Assembly (NCBI GenBank): GCA_020831525.1
Contig: JAFIGH010000034.1
Coordinates: 1 to 48,619, forward strand
Reading direction: 5' to 3'
Origin: Opitutales bacterium
GTDB taxonomy: Bacteria; Verrucomicrobiota; Verrucomicrobiia; Opitutales; Oceanipulchritudinaceae
DNA: 48,619 nucleotides
Shown: positions 5,074-12,689 of the stretch, piece by piece
Numbering within the stretch: the stretch's first letter is position 1
Layout of the letters: every line of letters begins with the position of its first letter
Translations under genes and position numbers: made by a program
The notes under the pieces: model-generated
Database searches by the model: none
Seen by the model: the letters and a program-made list of their open reading frames with translations, nothing else
What the model was told of the DNA's origin: nothing

Positions 5074-5277
5074 TTAGCGGCGAATGCCGACTCCGCCGAG
5101 GCCGATGACCGTGAGCACGACGCCCGCGATGAACATCCAGACGGATTTGTCGGTCGGCGTCCCGGTGAAGAATGTGGACATATCGGAAGCGAAGGAATTC
5201 ATGGCGGATATGCCGAGAATCACCAGTATGACGCCGCCGATGAGGATTGCGGCAAAGAGAATTTGATTGGTGTTCAT
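5074..5277 (-). CDS. DUF3185 family small membrane protein
   Basis: A 67-residue protein with two hydrophobic helices (about residues 7-27 and 45-65) separated by SFASDMSTFFTGTPTDKSVW. The FFTGxPTDKSxWM pattern is the hallmark of DUF3185, a family of small inner-membrane proteins of unknown role often found near stress genes. It is the last gene of a minus-strand run (receiver, lipoprotein, lmo0937-like protein, DUF3185) and starts 12 bp after the preceding stop. Function is unknown; envelope stress is inferred only from the neighbours. Confidence 0.8.
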   Translation of the reverse strand: MNTNQILFAAILIGGVILVILGISAMNSFASDMSTFFTGTPTDKSVWMFIAGVVLTVIGLGGVGIRR

Positions 5278-5500: not shown

Positions 5501-5977
5501 TCACGGCGAAATCTTTTCGCTCAGCCATTCGCGTGTGTTGTTAAAGCCGACCCGCAATTCGGTGTAGGCTTCACTTGTGCCCCTTTTGACGCTTTCCCAA
5601 TTGGATTCGCCGGCGTCTTTCACCTTGTCCAGTTGCGTATGGAGGTGGGCGGACTGAGCGCGCAGCGCCGCGATCCGCGGCTGTGCTTCCGCCCGGACTT
5701 CGCGACTCGATGTTGCAAGCTTGGCGGAAAGTTCGTTGATGTTCTCGTCGAGCCGGGCCAGCCGGGTTTCGAGGTTTTCGATAAAGGCTTCCTTCTGGGC
5801 GTGCGTGAAGGCATCCAGTTCCTTGGCTGCGTCGCGGGTGTCTGTCTGCACCTGCTCGATTTGGCGGGAGACACTGGATTGGGTGTCGCTTTCGGAGCGG
5901 TCGGCGGGTTTGCAACCGGCGGCGAGGGCGGCAACGGCGACGGGGCCGATAAGCCAGAATGTGTGTTTCATTTTCAT
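5501..5977 (-). CDS. sll1863-like coiled-coil lipoprotein
   Basis: A 158-residue predicted lipoprotein. The start MKMKHTFWL is followed by a hydrophobic core and lipobox LAAGC, with acylated Cys22. The mature part is almost entirely helical with heptad character: AFIENLETRLARLDENINEL, then AALRAQSAHLHTQLDKVKDA, then the ending SNWESVKRGTSEAYTELRVG. This helix-then-W-E-x-(V/L)-K-x-G pattern is typical of the sll1863 family of stress-response proteins. ATG 5977 is preferred because it gives a proper signal peptide; upstream codons overlap the receiver gene. The stop of the receiver gene lies 10 bp upstream, so the two are co-transcribed. A periplasmic-face role in envelope stress is inferred. 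Confidence 0.75.
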   Translation of the reverse strand: MKMKHTFWLIGPVAVAALAAGCKPADRSESDTQSSVSRQIEQVQTDTRDAAKELDAFTHAQKEAFIENLETRLARLDENINELSAKLATSSREVRAEAQPRIAALRAQSAHLHTQLDKVKDAGESNWESVKRGTSEAYTELRVGFNNTREWLSEKISP

Positions 5978-5987
5978 ACGGTTTTTA

Positions 5988-6488
5988 TTATACGGGCGCC
6001 GGAATCGGCAGACTATGGGGTGTTTTCCCACTGTTTGCGAGAATGAGAAGAGCCGCGATATCGGGAAGCAGATTCGTGAAGGAGAAGGGCTTGGCGACGG
6101 CTGCGCCCGGGAGGAGCAGTTGCTCCAGTTCGGGCGTTCTCTTCGGCATATTGCCCGACATGAGGATGGCGGGCTGGTTAAGGGAGGCGGCGCGCATGCG
6201 GCGCAGCAAATCGAGACCATTGAGCTTCGGCATTTCGAAGTCGGTGATGATCAGGTCGAAGGGTTCGGCGCAGAGGCTTTGCCAACCCGCTTCGCCGTTT
6301 TCGGCGCAGCGGACGTCGTAGCCCTGTGCTGTCAGCGCCTCGCCGAGAAGGTCGCGCAGGAGTTCATCGTCATCGACGATGACGAGACTGGGCCGCCGAC
6401 CGTTCGCACGGGGATCCGCCGGGTGTAGGCGGAGCGGTCGACGAGCAGGATGAACAGGAGGTATTGTAATCGAGTGCTGAAGGCTCAT
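5988..6488 (-). CDS. Stand-alone response-regulator receiver protein
   Basis: A 166-residue protein with one CheY-like receiver domain (about residues 33-150) after a Pro-rich N-terminus. The acidic pocket is DDDE at 39-42, the phospho-acceptor is D83 in LIITDFEMP, and the conserved lysine is in AVAKPFSF. There is no output domain, so it signals by protein contact or acts as a phosphate sink. It heads the minus-strand stress operon and diverges from the CheB-CheR/kinase/NarL operon, which makes that kinase a candidate partner. The ATG at 6488 is chosen over a longer frame reaching 6662 because the extra residues are low-complexity and overlap the promoter region. Confidence 0.85.
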   Translation of the reverse strand: MSLQHSITIPPVHPARRPLRLHPADPRANGRRPSLVIVDDDELLRDLLGEALTAQGYDVRCAENGEAGWQSLCAEPFDLIITDFEMPKLNGLDLLRRMRAASLNQPAILMSGNMPKRTPELEQLLLPGAAVAKPFSFTNLLPDIAALLILANSGKTPHSLPIPAPV

Positions 6489-6570
6489 GACGGTTGCGGC
6501 GTTTGTCGTTTGCGATGGATTGAGTGAACGCCGCCCGTTTGCACAGGCGGATTCGTTTCGTTTAGGAGAT

Positions 6571-6613
6571 AGTATAGGCAGCTGTTCCTTCTTGGAATGG
6601 GGTGTTGCCCTAC
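6571..6613 (-). promoter_or_regulatory. Promoter and GTAGGG-CACCCCAT motif before the receiver operon
   Basis: Read on the minus strand, GTAGGGCAACACCCCATT (6613-6596) is followed after about 20 nt by TATACT (6576-6571), a good -10 hexamer. The motif end sits where a -35 element would be, as expected of an activator site overlapping -35. The same directional motif occurs at 6709-6728 before the CheB-CheR gene and at 12671-12689 before the decayed radical SAM gene. Confidence 0.45.
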
Positions 6614-6708
6614 GCTGGTTTTCGGTCATTGAGTAAAGGGGCGCGCGGCTTGTGGTGTACATTTACGCATTCGCTCTGCCGCCGGAAGCGGCGGGCTGCG
6701 CGGTGGAG

Positions 6709-6728
6709 GTAGGTGATCACCCCATGTG
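6709..6728 (+). promoter_or_regulatory. GTAGGn-CACCCCAT motif before the CheB-CheR operon
   Basis: GTAGGTGATCACCCCATGTG lies about 100 bp before the CheB-CheR start and contains the perfect palindrome GGTGATCACC. It agrees with the copies at 6596-6613 and 12671-12689 in orientation and distance to the downstream gene. A dyad of this kind would suit a dimeric LuxR/NarL-type regulator such as the one at 10878 (inference). Confidence 0.45.
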
Positions 6729-6827
6729 TATTCCCTTGCCGCTTGCGGCGCGTGGAAGTAGTTCTTGGATAAAGTCGCTGATCCATTGTAACGGTTCACC
6801 GGCATAGAATGCAGGAATCAGGAATCC

Positions 6828-9485
6828 ATGGGCGGAAGAAAACGGGAGTTGAAAGGGGATTGTACGGAAGAGCAGAAAGCAGCGGAACCGGAGGCGGAGG
6901 TTGCCTTTCCCATCGTTGGCGTGGGCGCGTCGGCGGGCGGCCTTGAGGCGCTGGAGCAGTTTTTTGCGAAGGCCTCGGGAGGCGCCGGAATGGCCTACGT
7001 AATCATCCAACACCTCGACCCGACCCGCGAGGGGATGATGCCGGAATTACTGCAGCGCGGCACGGCGATGCCCGTTGTCCAGGTGGAAGACCGCACTCCG
7101 GTGAGGAAGGACCACGTCTATGTGATTCCGCCGAACAAGGACATGTCGATTCTGCACGGGGTTTTGCATTTGCTGGAGCCGAGAGCGCCGCGCGGGCAGC
7201 GCCTGCCGATTGATTATTTTCTGCGCTCGCTCGCGCTGGACCAGCGGGAGCGGAGTATCGGGGTGATCCTTTCGGGGATGGGATCCGACGGGACGCTCGG
7301 GTTGCGGGCCATCAAGGAACAGGGCGGGCTTGTCCTCGTGCAGGAGCCCGCGACGGCAAAGTGCGACGGCATGCCGGGCAGCGCCATCGAGGCCGGTCTT
7401 GCCGATATCGTCGCTCCGGCGGGCGAGATTCCGGCAAGGATTGCTGCTTGGCTGGAGCGCAAGCCGCTTCGGGGAGATGGAGCGGAAGCGTTGCCGGAGG
7501 GTTCGCGAAGCGCGCTGGATAAAGCCGTCATCCTTCTGCGCGAACACGCGGGGCACGATTTTTCACACTACAAGCGCAATACACTCTACCGGCGGATCGG
7601 GCGCCGCATGGGCATCCACCAGATCGACCGGATCGAGGCCTATATCCGCTACCTGCGCGACAATCCGCAGGAACTGGATCTGCTCTTCAAGGAGTTGTTG
7701 ATCGGCGTGACGAGTTTCTTTCGCGACCGCGACGCGTGGGACCGTCTGCGGGAGGACGCGCTGCCCGCGCTGCTTGCGAGCCACACTCCGGGGAGCGCCC
7801 TGCGGGCGTGGGTGCCGGGTTGTTCGACCGGCGAGGAGGCGTATTCTCTGGCCATGGTGATGCGTGAAGCGGCGGACAAACACCGGTCGGCGGGGAGCTT
7901 TCCCATGCAGGTGTTCGCCACCGATCTTGATGGCGACGCCGTCGACCGGGCGAGAACCGGTCTCTACCCGGAAAACATTGCCGCCGATGTCCCGGCGGAC
8001 CGGCTCAAGCGTTTTTTTAACAAGGAAGAGCGTGGCTACCAGATCCGCGCGGAGATCCGGGAGATGGTCATCTTCGCGACGCAGAACCTCATCACGGATC
8101 CGCCGTTCACGAAGCTGGACATCCTGAGTTGCCGCAACCTCCTGATCTACCTCGGCCCGGAAATACAGCGTAAGTTGATTCCGCTTTTTCACTACGGGTT
8201 GAACCCGGGCGGGGTCCTTTTTCTTGGCAGCGCGGAGACGGTGGGTGAGTTCACTTCTCTGTTTTCGCCGGTCGACGCAAAGGCGCGCCTCTACAAGTGT
8301 CTCGCACCCCGGGACCGGCACCATCCGCCGGAGTTTCCGGCGGCCTTCGGAACACGGGTTCCCGGCCGGGTGGACGCGGCGCGGAGCCCGAAGCCGGTCG
8401 CGAACCTGCAATCGCAGGCGGACGAACTCGTCCTGCGCTCCTTCGCGCCCCCGGCGGTCCTCGTCAATGACAAGGGCGACATCCTCTATATCAGCGGACG
8501 TACGGGGAAGTATCTGGAGCCGGCCGCGGGCAAGGCAAACTGGAACCTCTTTGCCATGGCGCGCGAAGGGATGCGCAACGAACTCCTCGGCGCGTTTCAG
8601 AAGGCCTTGCGCAAGGAGGAGCGTATTCTGGTCCGGGGGCTGCGGCCGGAGGGGTTCACTGAGGGCCGGGCGGTGGATGTCGCGGTGGAACGTATCACCG
8701 GGGGCGGTGATTTGCAGGGCTTGGTTATGCTCGTTTTCTTTGAAGTCGCGCTTCCCGCGGAAGTGAAGCGGCGCGGGCGTTCCGCGGCGTCATCCGCCGC
8801 GAATCCGCAGTTGGACGAACTCAGGCGCGAGCTGAACGAGGCGCGGGACGACGCGCGGCTTACCCGCGAGAGCATGCAAACCACGCAGGAAGAACTCCTC
8901 TCGGCCAATGAGGAGCTGCAGTCCACCAACGAGGAAGTCCAGTCCGCCAACGAGGAGTTGATGACCTCGAAGGAGGAAATGCAGTCGCTCAACGAGGAGT
9001 TGCAGACGGTGAACGCCGAACTGCAGGCCAAGGTCGACGAGTTGTCCCGCAGCAGCAACGACATGAAGAACCTCCTCGACAGCACTGACATCGCCACTCT
9101 GTTTCTCGACAACGACCTCAACGTGCGCCGCTTCACGGAACGGGCGACGTCGATTTTCAAGTTGATCAAGAGCGACCTCGGGCGCCCCATCACCGATCTT
9201 GCCTCGCGCCTCTGCTATCCTGAGTTGGAGGAGGATGCGCGCGGGGTTCTGCGCAGCCTGCTCGCGTCCGAGAAAGCCGTGAGCACAGAGGATGGCTCAT
9301 GGTTCACGTTGCGCATCATGCCCTACCGGACCTTGGACAACCGTATCGACGGTTTGGTCATCACCTTTGCGGATATCACGGCGGCCAAGCAACTGGAGGG
9401 CCGGTTGCGCGACCGGCACGCCGATCTGGAGGCGCGCGTCGCCTGCGGCGGCGGGAAAAAGAACGGAGGATCCAATGGCAACTGA
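6828..9485 (+). CDS. CheB-CheR-PAS hybrid chemotaxis-type protein
   Basis: An 885-residue fusion. Residues about 27-205 form a CheB methylesterase domain with the Ser/His/Asp triad visible as GASAGG (S35), QHLDP and GMGSDGT. Residues about 230-500 are a CheR methyltransferase with the SAM-binding motif WVPGCSTGEEAYSLA and the CheR core block SCRNLLIYL. A long coiled coil follows (about 655-745, with repeats such as SANEELQSTNEEVQ), then a PAS domain (about 750-865, ending FADITAAKQLEGRL). There is no kinase domain of its own. The next gene, a histidine kinase, overlaps the 3' end by 11 bp. No chemoreceptor or CheA gene is in the window, so such fusions probably modulate the adjacent kinase rather than motility (inference). 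Confidence 0.92.
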   Translation: MGGRKRELKGDCTEEQKAAEPEAEVAFPIVGVGASAGGLEALEQFFAKASGGAGMAYVIIQHLDPTREGMMPELLQRGTAMPVVQVEDRTPVRKDHVYVIPPNKDMSILHGVLHLLEPRAPRGQRLPIDYFLRSLALDQRERSIGVILSGMGSDGTLGLRAIKEQGGLVLVQEPATAKCDGMPGSAIEAGLADIVAPAGEIPARIAAWLERKPLRGDGAEALPEGSRSALDKAVILLREHAGHDFSHYKRNTLYRRIGRRMGIHQIDRIEAYIRYLRDNPQELDLLFKELLIGVTSFFRDRDAWDRLREDALPALLASHTPGSALRAWVPGCSTGEEAYSLAMVMREAADKHRSAGSFPMQVFATDLDGDAVDRARTGLYPENIAADVPADRLKRFFNKEERGYQIRAEIREMVIFATQNLITDPPFTKLDILSCRNLLIYLGPEIQRKLIPLFHYGLNPGGVLFLGSAETVGEFTSLFSPVDAKARLYKCLAPRDRHHPPEFPAAFGTRVPGRVDAARSPKPVANLQSQADELVLRSFAPPAVLVNDKGDILYISGRTGKYLEPAAGKANWNLFAMAREGMRNELLGAFQKALRKEERILVRGLRPEGFTEGRAVDVAVERITGGGDLQGLVMLVFFEVALPAEVKRRGRSAASSAANPQLDELRRELNEARDDARLTRESMQTTQEELLSANEELQSTNEEVQSANEELMTSKEEMQSLNEELQTVNAELQAKVDELSRSSNDMKNLLDSTDIATLFLDNDLNVRRFTERATSIFKLIKSDLGRPITDLASRLCYPELEEDARGVLRSLLASEKAVSTEDGSWFTLRIMPYRTLDNRIDGLVITFADITAAKQLEGRLRDRHADLEARVACGGGKKNGGSNGN

Positions 9486-10881
9486 GCCCGAAGCTGAGCA
9501 CGGCGATGCCGCCGCGTTGCGCCGCCGCGCCGAAAAACGGCTGCGGGTGCAGGCACCGCCTCCGCTGCCGCAGGAAGGTGATCGGCGTCGTATCCTGCAT
9601 GAACTGCAGGTCCATCAGATTCAGCTGGAGATGCAAAATGCGGAGCTGCGCGACGCCCGTGCCCGCCTTGAAGACTTGGTGGAGAAATACACCGACCTCT
9701 ACGATTTCGCGCCGGTGGGCTATTTCTCGCTGGACGCGACGGGGCGGATACAGGAGGTGAACCTGCCGGGAGCGGCCATGCTCGGGGTCGAGCGTTCCAA
9801 TCTGTTGCGGCGGCGCTTTGCCGGATTTGTCGCGCGCGGATATCACGCTGTCTTCGAGAATTTCTTGCGCGATGCGTTCGGGGGCTCACAGAAGCAGATG
9901 TGCGAGTTGGCTCTCGACCTCGGAGCAAAGGAGCCGGCATGGGTCGACTTGCAGGCCACGACGACCGCGTCTACGGGTGACGGCAGGCCGCTGTGCCGTC
10001 TCGCCGTGTCGGATATCACGGCACAGAAACACGCCGCCGAGGCGCGGCTTCGCGTAGCCGCGCTGGAGGCCATGAACACGGCGCTTGAAAATGAGGTTTC
10101 GAGGCGGAAGATGGTGGAAAAGTCCCTCCGGGATAGCCGCCAAAGCCAAAGTCTTTTGCTCACCGAATCGATGCGCATGGAGCAGGAACTGCGGCTTCTC
10201 TCCCACCAGGTCCTGCATGTGCAGGAAGAAGAGCGCAAACGCATCAGCCATGATCTGCACGATGAAATCGCGCAGACCCTTGCCGCCGTCAACGTCCACC
10301 TTGCCGATCTCTCGCGCGGCGCCGTTTTGGACGGGGAGGACATCAGCGGGAAGATTGTGAAGACGCAGAAGCTGGTGGAGCGGTCGATTGAAAGCGTGCA
10401 CCGCTTTGCCATGGGGCTGCGGCCGACCCAACTGGACGACCTCGGGTTGATCCAGGCCCTGCGGGGCTACACCAAGGAATTCACGAAACGAACGGAGATT
10501 CCGGTCCACCTGAAGACACCCGGCGAGTTGAAACCACTCGGCGACAGCCGGTCTGTCGCGCTCTACCGTGTGGCTCAGGCCGCCTTGACGAACGTCGCCG
10601 AACACGCCGACGCCACGCGGGTGGAGGTGGACATCCGCCAGACGCAGCGGTCTGTGTCCATGGAAATCAGCGACGACGGCAAATCCTTTAATGTGAAAGA
10701 GACACTCCATGGAACTAAGTTCAATCGGTTGGGCCTGATCGGGATGAGGGAGCGCGTGGAGATGGTCGGCGGCAAATTCAAGATCGCCTCGTCCCGCGGC
10801 AAGGGGACGACCGTTCGGGTGACGGTGCCCTGCGCCAAAACAGATTCAGTCACCATCCCCGTGACCAAGGATAACTCATGA
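9475..10881 (+). CDS. PAS domain HisKA_3 sensor histidine kinase
   Basis: A 468-residue soluble kinase. An N-terminal coiled coil (LHELQVHQIQLEMQNAELRD) leads to a PAS domain (about 75-190, beginning YDFAPVGYFSLDATGRI) and a second helix. The HisKA_3 dimerisation domain carries the motif EEERKRISHDLHDEIAQ, with His262 as likely phospho-acceptor. The ATPase domain has an N box (ALTNVAEHADAT) and a G box (RLGLIGMRERVEMVGG), typical of NarX/UhpB-type kinases. No membrane segment is seen, so the signal is cytoplasmic. ATG 9475 follows GGAGGA and overlaps the CheB-CheR gene; the stop overlaps the response regulator start as ATGA, so the three are translationally coupled. Confidence 0.93.
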   Translation: MATEPEAEHGDAAALRRRAEKRLRVQAPPPLPQEGDRRRILHELQVHQIQLEMQNAELRDARARLEDLVEKYTDLYDFAPVGYFSLDATGRIQEVNLPGAAMLGVERSNLLRRRFAGFVARGYHAVFENFLRDAFGGSQKQMCELALDLGAKEPAWVDLQATTTASTGDGRPLCRLAVSDITAQKHAAEARLRVAALEAMNTALENEVSRRKMVEKSLRDSRQSQSLLLTESMRMEQELRLLSHQVLHVQEEERKRISHDLHDEIAQTLAAVNVHLADLSRGAVLDGEDISGKIVKTQKLVERSIESVHRFAMGLRPTQLDDLGLIQALRGYTKEFTKRTEIPVHLKTPGELKPLGDSRSVALYRVAQAALTNVAEHADATRVEVDIRQTQRSVSMEISDDGKSFNVKETLHGTKFNRLGLIGMRERVEMVGGKFKIASSRGKGTTVRVTVPCAKTDSVTIPVTKDNS

Positions 10882-11552
10882 AGAACCGTATATCCATCGT
10901 TCTGGCGGAAGATCACCTCATCGTGCGCGAGGGGATCCGCAATCTCCTTCAAGGCGAAGACGATTTCGCCGTCGTCGGCGAAGTCACCAACGGTCGGGAG
11001 GCGATCGAAAAGGTGGCCGAACTCCGTCCGGATGTTGTCGTCATGGACATCGCATTGCCCCTCCTCAACGGCATCGAGGCCTGCCGGCACTTCCACAAAG
11101 CGCACTCAAAGAGCCGCGTGCTCATGCTTTCGGCGCACGGTGACGACGCCTATGTGGAAGGGTCCATCGAAGCCGGGGCGGCCGGCTTCGTCCTCAAACA
11201 GGCACCCGGCAGCGCCCTCGCCCACGCCATCCGCGAGGTCCACGCAGGGCGGCGGTTCTTCAGCGCGGCCATCCTCCAGCGCTACCGCGACGTGCAATCG
11301 GGGCTTCGCGACGGATCCGGGCCGAAAAAGCGACCGCCCCTGACCCCGCGTGAGGCCGAGGTCCTGCAGCTGATCGCGGAGGGCAAGGCCAATAAGGAAA
11401 CCGCCGTCGAACTGGGCATCAGCATCAAGACCGTCGAAAAGCACCGCACCAACCTCATGCGCAAACTCAATATCCACGACACCGCCACCCTCACCCGCTA
11501 TGCAATCGCCGAGGGCATTATTGAAAGCCGCATCCAGAACACCACCGGGTGA
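10878..11552 (+). CDS. NarL/FixJ-type response regulator
   Basis: A 224-residue two-component regulator. The receiver domain (1-125) has acidic residues E11 and D12, phospho-acceptor D57 in VVVMDIALP, and the conserved lysine in GFVLKQAP. A LuxR-type helix-turn-helix (about 150-212) is shown by LTPREAEVLQLIAEGKANKE and IKTVEKHRTNLMRKL. It is the cognate partner of the upstream kinase by a 4-bp overlap. The GGGT-GAT-ACCC-like dyads at 6596, 6709 and 12671 are candidate binding sites (inference). Confidence 0.94.
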   Translation: MKNRISIVLAEDHLIVREGIRNLLQGEDDFAVVGEVTNGREAIEKVAELRPDVVVMDIALPLLNGIEACRHFHKAHSKSRVLMLSAHGDDAYVEGSIEAGAAGFVLKQAPGSALAHAIREVHAGRRFFSAAILQRYRDVQSGLRDGSGPKKRPPLTPREAEVLQLIAEGKANKETAVELGISIKTVEKHRTNLMRKLNIHDTATLTRYAIAEGIIESRIQNTTG

Positions 11553-11582
11553 GGGGAGCGCCGGAGCTTGTCACCATCACGG

Positions 11583-12594
11583 TCACGCGCGCGGGGAGGT
11601 GACTTCGTCAAGGCAGGGTCGCTTCAACTGCGTTTCGTAAACCTTGCGAAAATGAAAGCCCATAATAGAGAAGGTCACGGCCATGGCGAACAAATCCCTC
11701 CGGCGCAGGAGTGTCCATCCCAGAAGCTTCCAGTATTCGAAGCGCTCCCGGCCGACAAGCCCGAGCCTCCATGATGAGCGGAAGAAGGCCCGCAGGTGGG
11801 CGATCTCCATGGCGGGACGGACGGACGGGCGGCGGTATTCGCGGAGGAACTGTTGCACCCGGCGATAGTAGGGCTTGGGAAGGTAGATACTTTCGAAGAT
11901 TCTGCGGTAGCCTTCCTGAAGGGCCTTCATGCTCATCACCGGCTGGATGTTGGTATCGCAGGCGGTATTGTCGCCCCCCGTGAATCCCTTGATGCGGCCC
12001 TCGCCATTGAGGCGCTCGTAGAGGCGGGTGCCGGCCGGCGCCTGCAAAATCCCGACCATCGCCATAACGATCCCGCTGCGCTGGATGAAATCGATCTGGC
12101 GCTGGAAGATGTCGGGGCCGTCACTGTCGAAGCCGACGATGAATCCGCCCTGCACCTGAAGGCCCGCGCGCTGCATGCGCGAGACGCTTTCGAGCAGGTC
12201 GCGATTACAGTTCTGGCGCTTGTTGCATTCCTTCAGGCCCGCCGCGTCAGGGGTTTCTATCCCGACAAAAACGGTGTTGAAACCGGCGCGCCGCATCGCG
12301 TCCATCAACTCCGGATCGTCCGCGCGCTTGCACCGTGCGATGGCGCTTGTGCGCGGATTCACGCTGGACGACCATTCCCCCGATCATCACGAGTTCCGCC
12401 CATGCAAGGTCCTTGTCGCGCAACCGGCGGATATTCAGATCCGCGAGCCGCAGTGCCCAGCTCCCGGGCAACATCGCCGCTACTGTGAGCAAACCGAGGG
12501 GTGGAAAGGCCGCCCGTTTGCCGAGAAAGCGAAGCGCGTATTTGAAGCTCCAGTAGGTCGCCGGAATCTCCGGGTTGATCAGCAAGACATTCAC
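11583..12594 (-). pseudogene. Decayed B12-binding radical SAM (DUF4070-type) gene
   Basis: Two frames together encode the two ends of one family. The 5' part (GTG 12594) reads as a B12-binding domain start: NVLLINPEIPATYWSFKYAL, AAFPPLGLLTVAAMLP, MVVQRESA. The 3' part, in another frame from about 12362, reads as the C-terminal half: ADDPELMDAMRRAGFNTVFV, GIETPDAAGLKECNKRQN, VQGGFIVGFDSD, then a DUF4070-like end. Intact relatives are about 480-500 residues; here about 340 codons remain. The middle, including the CxxxCxxC iron-sulfur motif, is absent in both frames, and a +1 frameshift is needed to join the halves near 12340-12360. Deletion plus frameshift means no active enzyme. The remaining 3' reading frame is well preserved, so decay is probably recent. 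Confidence 0.8.
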
Positions 12595-12670
12595 AATGCA
12601 TCTCTGTGGTTCACGTAAGGGATTCTCCTTCCGAGGTTGGAAATGCATTGGAAGAATGGCAATCCGTTCT

Positions 12671-12689
12671 ACATGGGGTGATACCCTAC
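12671..12689 (-). promoter_or_regulatory. GTAGGG-CACCCCAT motif before the decayed radical SAM gene
   Basis: Read on the minus strand this is GTAGGGTATCACCCCATGT, 77 bp upstream of the GTG start of the radical SAM pseudogene. It is the third copy of the motif seen twice in the 6489-6827 region, with the same orientation toward the gene and the core palindrome GGGT-GAT-ACCC. No clear -10 element follows. Confidence 0.45.

Follow-up and report, generated by a model that had tools for sequence, protein, structure and literature searches.

The stretch of DNA analysed here, called the window throughout, comprises 48,619 nucleotides of an Opitutales bacterium and carries two divergently oriented sets of signalling genes and, farther along, a decayed radical SAM gene. 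Copies of one short dyad motif, hereafter the box, precede each of them and point at them, which raises the question of what the box does and which protein reads it. The preliminary description of this DNA had assigned the box to a LuxR/NarL-type dimer, namely to the response regulator encoded at 10878 inside one of the two operons.

Boxes and genes of the window

All three copies on which the preliminary description relied are present where it had placed them, but the motif comprises 17 rather than 18 bp, and a fourth copy, ahead of the lipoprotein-like gene, had been missed (Table 1). When up to three mismatches are allowed, the window contains four matches against 0.20 expected, a number reached in none of 100 shuffled sequences. 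In an exact-pattern scan of the 5.3-Mb genome, GTAGGNNANCACCCCAT occurs three times, always within the window, and its reversed counterpart never. With a pattern that combines the box and a -10 element (up to two mismatches), the same genome (G000) yields 12 sites and no reversed match, distributed over three contigs: six on C28, three on C64, to which the window belongs, and three on C125.

Table 1. Positions of genes, boxes and promoter elements in the window
Feature	Position	Strand	Remarks
Small membrane protein, DUF3185	5074-5277	-	Pfam E 2.2e-16
Coiled-coil lipoprotein-like gene	5501-5977	-	Weak, below-cut-off Pfam matches only, scanned as ORF 5501-6220; matching DNA in L033 and L034
-10 TATAAT of the 6015-6031 promoter	5992-5987	-	Motif positions 40-45, conserved spacing
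Stand-alone receiver protein	5988-6488	-	Response_reg E 9.1e-20, scanned as ORF 5988-6662
Putative operator box GTGGGAAAACACCCCAT	6015-6031	-	Three mismatches; PWM 15.7; 0 reversed-control matches
-10 TACTAT of the 6597-6613 promoter	6574-6569	-	Spacing conserved elsewhere
Putative operator box GTAGGGCAACACCCCAT	6597-6613	-	Precedes receiver, lipoprotein and DUF3185 genes
Putative operator box GTAGGTGATCACCCCAT	6709-6725	+	Precedes CheB-CheR / kinase / regulator operon
Possible -35 TTGCCG	6736-6741	+	10 bp past the 6709-6725 box; lineage-specific, tentative
CheB-CheR-PAS fusion	6828-9485	+	Pfam CheB_methylest, CheR, PAS_10
PAS-HisKA_3-HATPase histidine kinase	9475-10881	+	Pfam on ORF 9292-10881; start from simple gene caller
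NarL/LuxR-type response regulator, proposed box reader	10878-11552	+	Response_reg and GerE
Decayed radical SAM / DUF4070 gene, two frames	11583-12594	-	Comparison with L144 homologue; Pfam
Putative operator box GTAGGGTATCACCCCAT	12673-12689	-	Highest PWM score of the window, 30.9; precedes radical SAM remnant

Of the four sites, the one newly found at 6015 is followed by the best -10. The receiver open reading frame listed as 5988-6662 would extend across the box; a start at the ATG at 6488 agrees with the box and with the homologue in a related locus (L033). The earlier statement that the motif ends at the -35 position of this promoter is right, but the -10 had been misplaced: TATACT (6576-6571) lies two bases upstream of TACTAT, the hexamer found at the conserved spacing. 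The other two sites lack a -10 at that spacing, which is occupied by GCGCGT at the 6709 site and by CAATGC at the 12673 site; the autoregulatory 6709 site is therefore among the least typical ones. The radical SAM gene behind the 12673 site aligns to residues 30-121 and 283-412 of its homologue in locus L144, in different frames and with about 160 codons of the homologue unmatched, so the middle of the window copy has been lost. In L144, the radical SAM/B12/DUF4070 gene shows no break over the 413 aa that the locus contains, and it has been called 262 bp behind a box. The site in the window is thus not a stray one, since this family member also follows a box.

The arrangement is conserved in two relatives, a Puniceicoccaceae MAG (L033) and an Opitutales MAG (L034), whose regulators are 86% and 77% identical to that of the window and in which boxes are kept at the same places. 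All three loci have AAACACCCCATA without any change ahead of the lipoprotein gene. Ahead of the receiver gene, L033 has GTAGGGGAAGACCCCAT followed by TATCAT at the conserved spacing, and ahead of the CheB-CheR gene it has GTGGGTCATCACCCCAC. In L034, about 225 bp separate the box GTAGGGGTTTACCCTAT from the regulator gene downstream of it, with no CheB-CheR or kinase gene in between. The CheBR/regulator promoters of the three loci all lack the usual -10 and share TTGC 10 bp past the box. As a separate observation, L033 contains, about 0.4 kb behind the regulator gene, a second partial copy (about 80 bp, 11093-11173) of the 3' end of this gene, which is 80% identical to the regulator gene of the window.

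Distribution, direction and promoter geometry of the boxes

Searches with several patterns, each accompanied by a reversed-pattern control, have been applied to the order, to loci selected for their regulators and to the phylum. In the order (273 genomes), GTAGGNNANNACCCCAT was matched 33 times, in 23 genomes, compared with 7 times for the reversed pattern, several of the matches adjoining a CheB-CheR gene or kinase and regulator genes, with regulators 49-52% identical to that of the window. In the best 80 loci (1.13 Mb), which were fetched by similarity of the regulator and not by the motif, GTAGGNNNNNNCCCCAT occurs 77 times in 43 loci and never reversed. The genomes of 48 of these 80 loci, searched with GTAGGGTNNNACCCCAT, contain 149 sites in 38 genomes, up to 20 per genome, and no reversed match. 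Across 337 genomes of the phylum, the bare strict box was found at 154 sites in 38 genomes against none reversed (at least eight genomes are common to this and the 48-genome scan), and the box together with a -10 at 162 sites in 47 genomes against five reversed. An extension to the Planctomycetota, the phylum of G306, was dropped, the signal being no higher than that of the control: besides G306 itself, one of the 149 genomes had sites, two against two in the control.

Of 157 distinct sites with a PWM score of at least 20, a simple gene caller places 149 between genes and only eight inside them, so the many intragenic copies that would have spoken against a regulatory role do not appear. A gene starts within 300 bp downstream of 114 sites (median distance for those, 86.5 bp), compared with 32 in the opposite direction; some loci of this set had been brought in by the motif itself, which has no bearing on direction or on the -10. 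Pairs of sites no more than 150 bp apart are divergent in 16 cases, convergent in none and on the same strand in four. Three of these four are exactly 23 bp apart (L103, 9881/9904; L085, 8885/8908 and 15986/16009), and site coordinates give the same tandem spacing in G588 (twice), G512 and G505; as 23 bp correspond to two helical turns, cooperating dimers are suggested. On a larger scale, boxes cluster over about 10-60 kb in the manner of stress-gene islands (G322 C7, G440 C21, G454 C8, G408 C24 and G000 C28), with the regulator on the same contig in the first four.

The consensus of 79 aligned intergenic sites is G-GTAGGGTWWCACCCCAT-RG, in which GTAGG and CCCCAT are fixed by the pattern used for searching, all other columns being free; the alignment omits L030 and L006, whose genomes are the same as those of L110 and L082, as well as sites in genes or near a locus end. 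Because GTAGGGT and ATGGGGT, the reverse complement of ACCCCAT, differ by two transitions only, the box can be written as two inverted copies of RTRGGGT separated by 3 bp, and sites of the GTAGGGTNNNACCCCAT type are imperfect inverted repeats of this unit. In L063, L108, L089, L092, G239, G227 and G159, from genomes labelled Opitutaceae or belonging to the same order, the central CA of the box is replaced by GG, CG or GT (GTAGGGCAAGGCCCCAT and similar sequences).

Downstream of the box, columns free of any selection reveal a -10 element (T in 52, A in 61 and T in 62 of the 79 sites at motif positions 40, 41 and 45, respectively), and G stands at position 37 in 44 of the 79. In a set of 155 sites, TAnnnT begins at position 40 in 77, compared with at most 10 at any other offset between 21 and 60; about half of the sites, including two of the four in the window, are without a strict TAnnnT at the fixed place. 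Given this constant spacing to the sigma70-type -10 that follows it, the box has its centre near -43, over the -35 region: with the -10 taken as -12 to -7, the box extends from -51 to -35, and its last T is the first base of the -35 hexamer, separated from the -10 by a 17-bp spacer. The asymmetry of the box would then be due, at least in part, to the overlap of its promoter-side half with the -35 position. A box centred at -43 that overlaps the -35 has the geometry of class II activators, whose operators lie near -42, over the -35 and at a fixed distance from a sigma70 -10; about half of the sites show it strictly. A general class I layout, with TTGC as a -35 at position 28 and a -10 at about 51, was considered for the 6709 and 12673 sites and rejected, as TTG at 28 +/-1 occurs in 4 of 155 sites (the window's own excluded) and never together with TAnnnT at 50-53. 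Such a layout is kept, tentatively and as a local variant, only for the three orthologous CheBR/regulator promoters.

Two explanations that dispense with an activator bear on these observations. A chance motif or dispersed repeat might account for cases such as G561 (contigs C20, C141 and C169), where the single variant GTAGGGTCTGACCCCAT is present five times, with three of the copies at intervals of about 50 bp, and looks like an unrelated repeat; as a general explanation it is refuted by the absence of reversed matches in several scans, the fixed -10 and the variable cores of the boxes, and we assign it a negligible probability. It is also very improbable that the box forms part of a promoter for an alternative sigma factor. 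Its direction, its fixed distance to the -10 and, as in RpoS- or SigB-dependent responses, its place at the head of a stress regulon agree with such a promoter, but what precedes the sigma70-like TAnnnT, at a 17-bp spacing, is an inverted repeat of 17 bp, which argues against it, as does the result that none of eight site-bearing genomes has a match above the cut-off of the RpoS model (TIGR02394), all eight having lower-scoring matches of the sigma70 family.

Association of the boxes with a NarL-type regulator

The regulator at 10878 has the layout of the NarL/FixJ family according to Pfam, a receiver plus a GerE/LuxR helix-turn-helix, and its nearest solved chains are VraR (first, E 5.8e-40), DesR, DevR and NarL. 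A HisKA_3 kinase, also recognised by Pfam, is encoded beside it in the window, and homologues of this kinase adjoin the regulator in L006, L007, L008, L011 and L154.

For the co-occurrence of regulator and box, which the preliminary description had proposed as a check, a profile of 21 regulators (20 from box-bearing loci and that of the window) was run over the 337 genomes of the phylum. Orthologues were delimited by a gap between 286 bits, a score reached or exceeded in 45 genomes, and 254 bits, the cut-off being chosen after the gap had been seen; this run scored the best eight candidates per genome, and the runs on the family and on the motif-only genomes scored all. Both the box + -10 pattern and an orthologue are present in 37 genomes, the pattern alone in 10, the regulator alone in eight and neither in 282, i.e. 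sites in 37 of 45 orthologue-bearing genomes compared with 10 of 292 others (odds ratio 130, p 3e-32, uncorrected for phylogeny). The corresponding counts for the bare box are 29, 9, 16 and 283 (odds ratio 57, p 1e-22), and the association for the box + -10 pattern persists when the six of the 37 genomes that supplied profile regulators are removed (odds ratio 109, p 1e-27) or when all ten genomes recognised from the 80 loci or the window are removed (odds ratio 113, p 1e-25), all these values being likewise uncorrected for phylogeny. Three of the eight orthologue genomes without the box + -10 pattern (G497, G500 and G406) carry the bare box.

The same relation holds within the family of the window, where three of 17 genomes, G000, G006 and G008, have an orthologue and all three have sites (by the family scan in G000 and G008, by the box + -10 phylum scan in G006). 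Two others, G004 and G011, have a 208-bit relative of the regulator and the remaining 12 have nothing at E 1e-60; the family scan pattern is absent from all 14 orthologue-less genomes, two of the same genus included. Sites also lie close to the regulator gene, within 10 kb in 29 of 39 genomes that have both, against 0.8 expected, and within 2.5 kb in 23 against 0.2, with distances taken by eye and G064 left out of the count. The recognition-helix region SIKTVEKHR is nearly invariant across 81 aligned regulators, so an attempt to pair helix residues with motif variants gave no outcome.

The preliminary description had named the occurrence of the motif in genomes lacking the regulator as evidence against its proposal, and such genomes exist. 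Eight genomes (G396, G420, G427, G438, G533, G556, G567 and G592) have sites and no orthologue, their best regulator, with all candidates scored, reaching 242 bits and thus staying below the 286-bit edge of the orthologues. Their sites look functional, with several well-placed -10s and with similar types of genes downstream, namely one for a BON protein (L172, by Pfam) and, by eye, CsbD-like and ABC-transporter-like genes. Other NarL-type regulators were considered as readers in these genomes and set aside, none of 12 of their regulator loci (3.4-3.6 kb each) containing a box. The assemblies are 86-96% complete, so missing genes can explain some of the cases, whereas G438 and G556, congeners that both lack an orthologue, suggest a real change of reader. 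In two further motif-only genomes, G123 and G201, the count is a single site, no different from that of the control genomes.

These eight genomes, for example G427 and G556 with four sites each and most of the sites with a rightly placed TAnnnT, are what favours the alternative that a different regulator reads the box and that the NarL-type gene is only a target and a frequent neighbour. Against it stand the strong co-occurrence, the joint presence within one family, the close linkage, the suitability of the dyad for a NarL-type dimer and the near invariance of the recognition helix, besides the possibility that some MAGs simply miss the gene, and we consider this alternative unlikely. Co-occurrence, presence and absence within the family, linkage, synteny and class II geometry thus support, at the computational level, the proposal that the dyad is recognised by a NarL/LuxR dimer and that the gene at 10878 encodes this protein.

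Genes behind the boxes and comparison with known systems

Pfam domains were compared between 89 of 112 distinct downstream genes, after removal of those of at least 1000 aa, those lying more than 200 bp away from their site and some uncertain gene calls, and 89 other genes of the same loci. The targets include BON (12), ice-binding (6), RsbU_N (5), DUF883 (4), DUF5670 (3) and entericidin (3) domains, each of which has at most one representative among the controls, as none is among the 25 of 124 control families listed. No clear enrichment is seen for CsbD (4 targets, 2 controls), PRC (3 and 2), HisKA_3 (8 and 10) or GerE (4 and 6); kinase and regulator genes occur in both sets because genes farther down the same operons form part of the control. 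Boxes are thus found ahead of envelope and osmotic-stress genes (BON, CsbD, DUF883, DUF5670, entericidin, PRC and ice-binding) and of kinase and regulator genes. On contig C28 of the window's genome, six boxes lie among genes for DUF892, PRC-BON and YflT-domain proteins and a small lipoprotein-like protein (no Pfam match), and a 48-aa gene that is DUF5670-like by eye stands behind GTAGGGTCACACCCCAT with TACACT.

Some of the five RsbU_N matches are below the curated cut-off. The one in L044 (E 1.8e-6) is above it, in a 241-aa frame without a kinase match, and in L154 and L137 the domain precedes HisKA_3 with sub-threshold values (5.6e-4 and 2.3e-4). Such RsbU_N-like N-termini of kinases or kinase-like reading frames hint at a partner-switching input; the kinase of the window has PAS instead.

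The promoters are found in many Verrucomicrobia-like bacteria, and probably one two-component regulator turns on stress-protection genes and its own signalling genes through them. The analysis shows where the boxes lie, how they are spaced and oriented, which genes follow them, how they are conserved and that they accompany the regulator; from this we infer the identity of the binder, activation as its action and stress as the signal; with good confidence, though short of certainty, we take the box to be the operator of the NarL-type regulator 10878-11552, acting as a class II activator of both sets of genes. In the proposed mechanism, the neighbouring HisKA_3 kinase would presumably phosphorylate the regulator upon a stress signal, and the regulator would bind RTRGGGT-N3-ACCCYAY, an imperfect inverted repeat, as a dimer. 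In most promoters, the box would occupy -51 to -35 and substitute for a good -35 hexamer; once bound, the dimer would recruit sigma70 polymerase to the TAnnnT -10; with envelope and osmotic-stress genes as well as kinase, regulator and CheB-CheR genes in the regulon, positive feedback would result. NarL-type regulators can also repress from positions overlapping the -35, and the box does overlap it, so a bound dimer might instead occlude the -35. This reading we regard as quite improbable, given that the site profile has no good -35 hexamer under the box, as expected of activator-dependent promoters, and that box promoters drive kinase and regulator genes besides stress genes.

Verrucomicrobiota are abundant in soil and water, and to our knowledge the coordination of their stress survival is poorly known. 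By its breadth and content, the predicted regulon qualifies as a candidate for the general stress response of the phylum. It is possible, although we hold this only tentatively, that such a response operates across a large part of the Verrucomicrobiota, with a NarL-type regulator in the role of RpoS or SigB at sigma70 promoters and some kinases having an RsbU-like N-terminal input that would connect partner switching to a two-component system. In practical terms, the analysis provides a promoter signature of low background that can be searched for in any genome, and with it a predicted regulon, a candidate master regulator, testable targets and a context for genes of CsbD, BON, DUF5670 and ice-binding proteins in this phylum. 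No description of the motif or the regulon was found in the open-access papers searched, a collection that excludes subscription journals and preprints; in the main text of a study of Chlamydiae, as far as accessible, NarL and LuxR are absent (PMC4989314).

Among the systems to which the regulon may be compared, VraR, DesR and NarL share the layout of receiver and helix-turn-helix, a similarity at the family level only, and their operators and regulons differ from those described here. CsbD, BON/OsmY-like, entericidin and DUF883 proteins belong to the RpoS, SigB and EcfG stress regulons, which thus overlap in target types with the box regulon, and the RsbU_N matches add to the likeness; unlike in these systems, a response regulator appears to act here at sigma70-type promoters.

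The best functional parallel is offered by DevR/DosR of Mycobacterium and OsdR of Streptomyces. In these systems, a NarL-family regulator is paired with a HisKA_3 kinase, and the DevR chain among the solved structures nearest to the window's regulator is 3c3w. The OsdR operator is described as a 16-nt palindrome, AGGGCCGATCGGCCCT (GGG-N8-CCC), one copy of which precedes osdR, and the stress genes are clustered (PMC5069765). A response regulator, a GGG...CCC palindrome, a stress regulon and the targeting of the regulator's own gene and of clustered neighbours are therefore common to both. The two differ in operator spacing (GGG-N5-CCC here), in phylum and, as far as that text extends, in targets, BON, CsbD, ice-binding and envelope proteins here corresponding to universal stress proteins and nitroreductases there; the latter two have at most one representative each among the 89 targets, being outside the 25 of 67 families listed. 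Because operator spacing and target families differ, the present system is not counted as a DevR/OsdR system, and we take it to be a hitherto undescribed stress regulon whose mechanism is of a known, DevR/OsdR-like kind.
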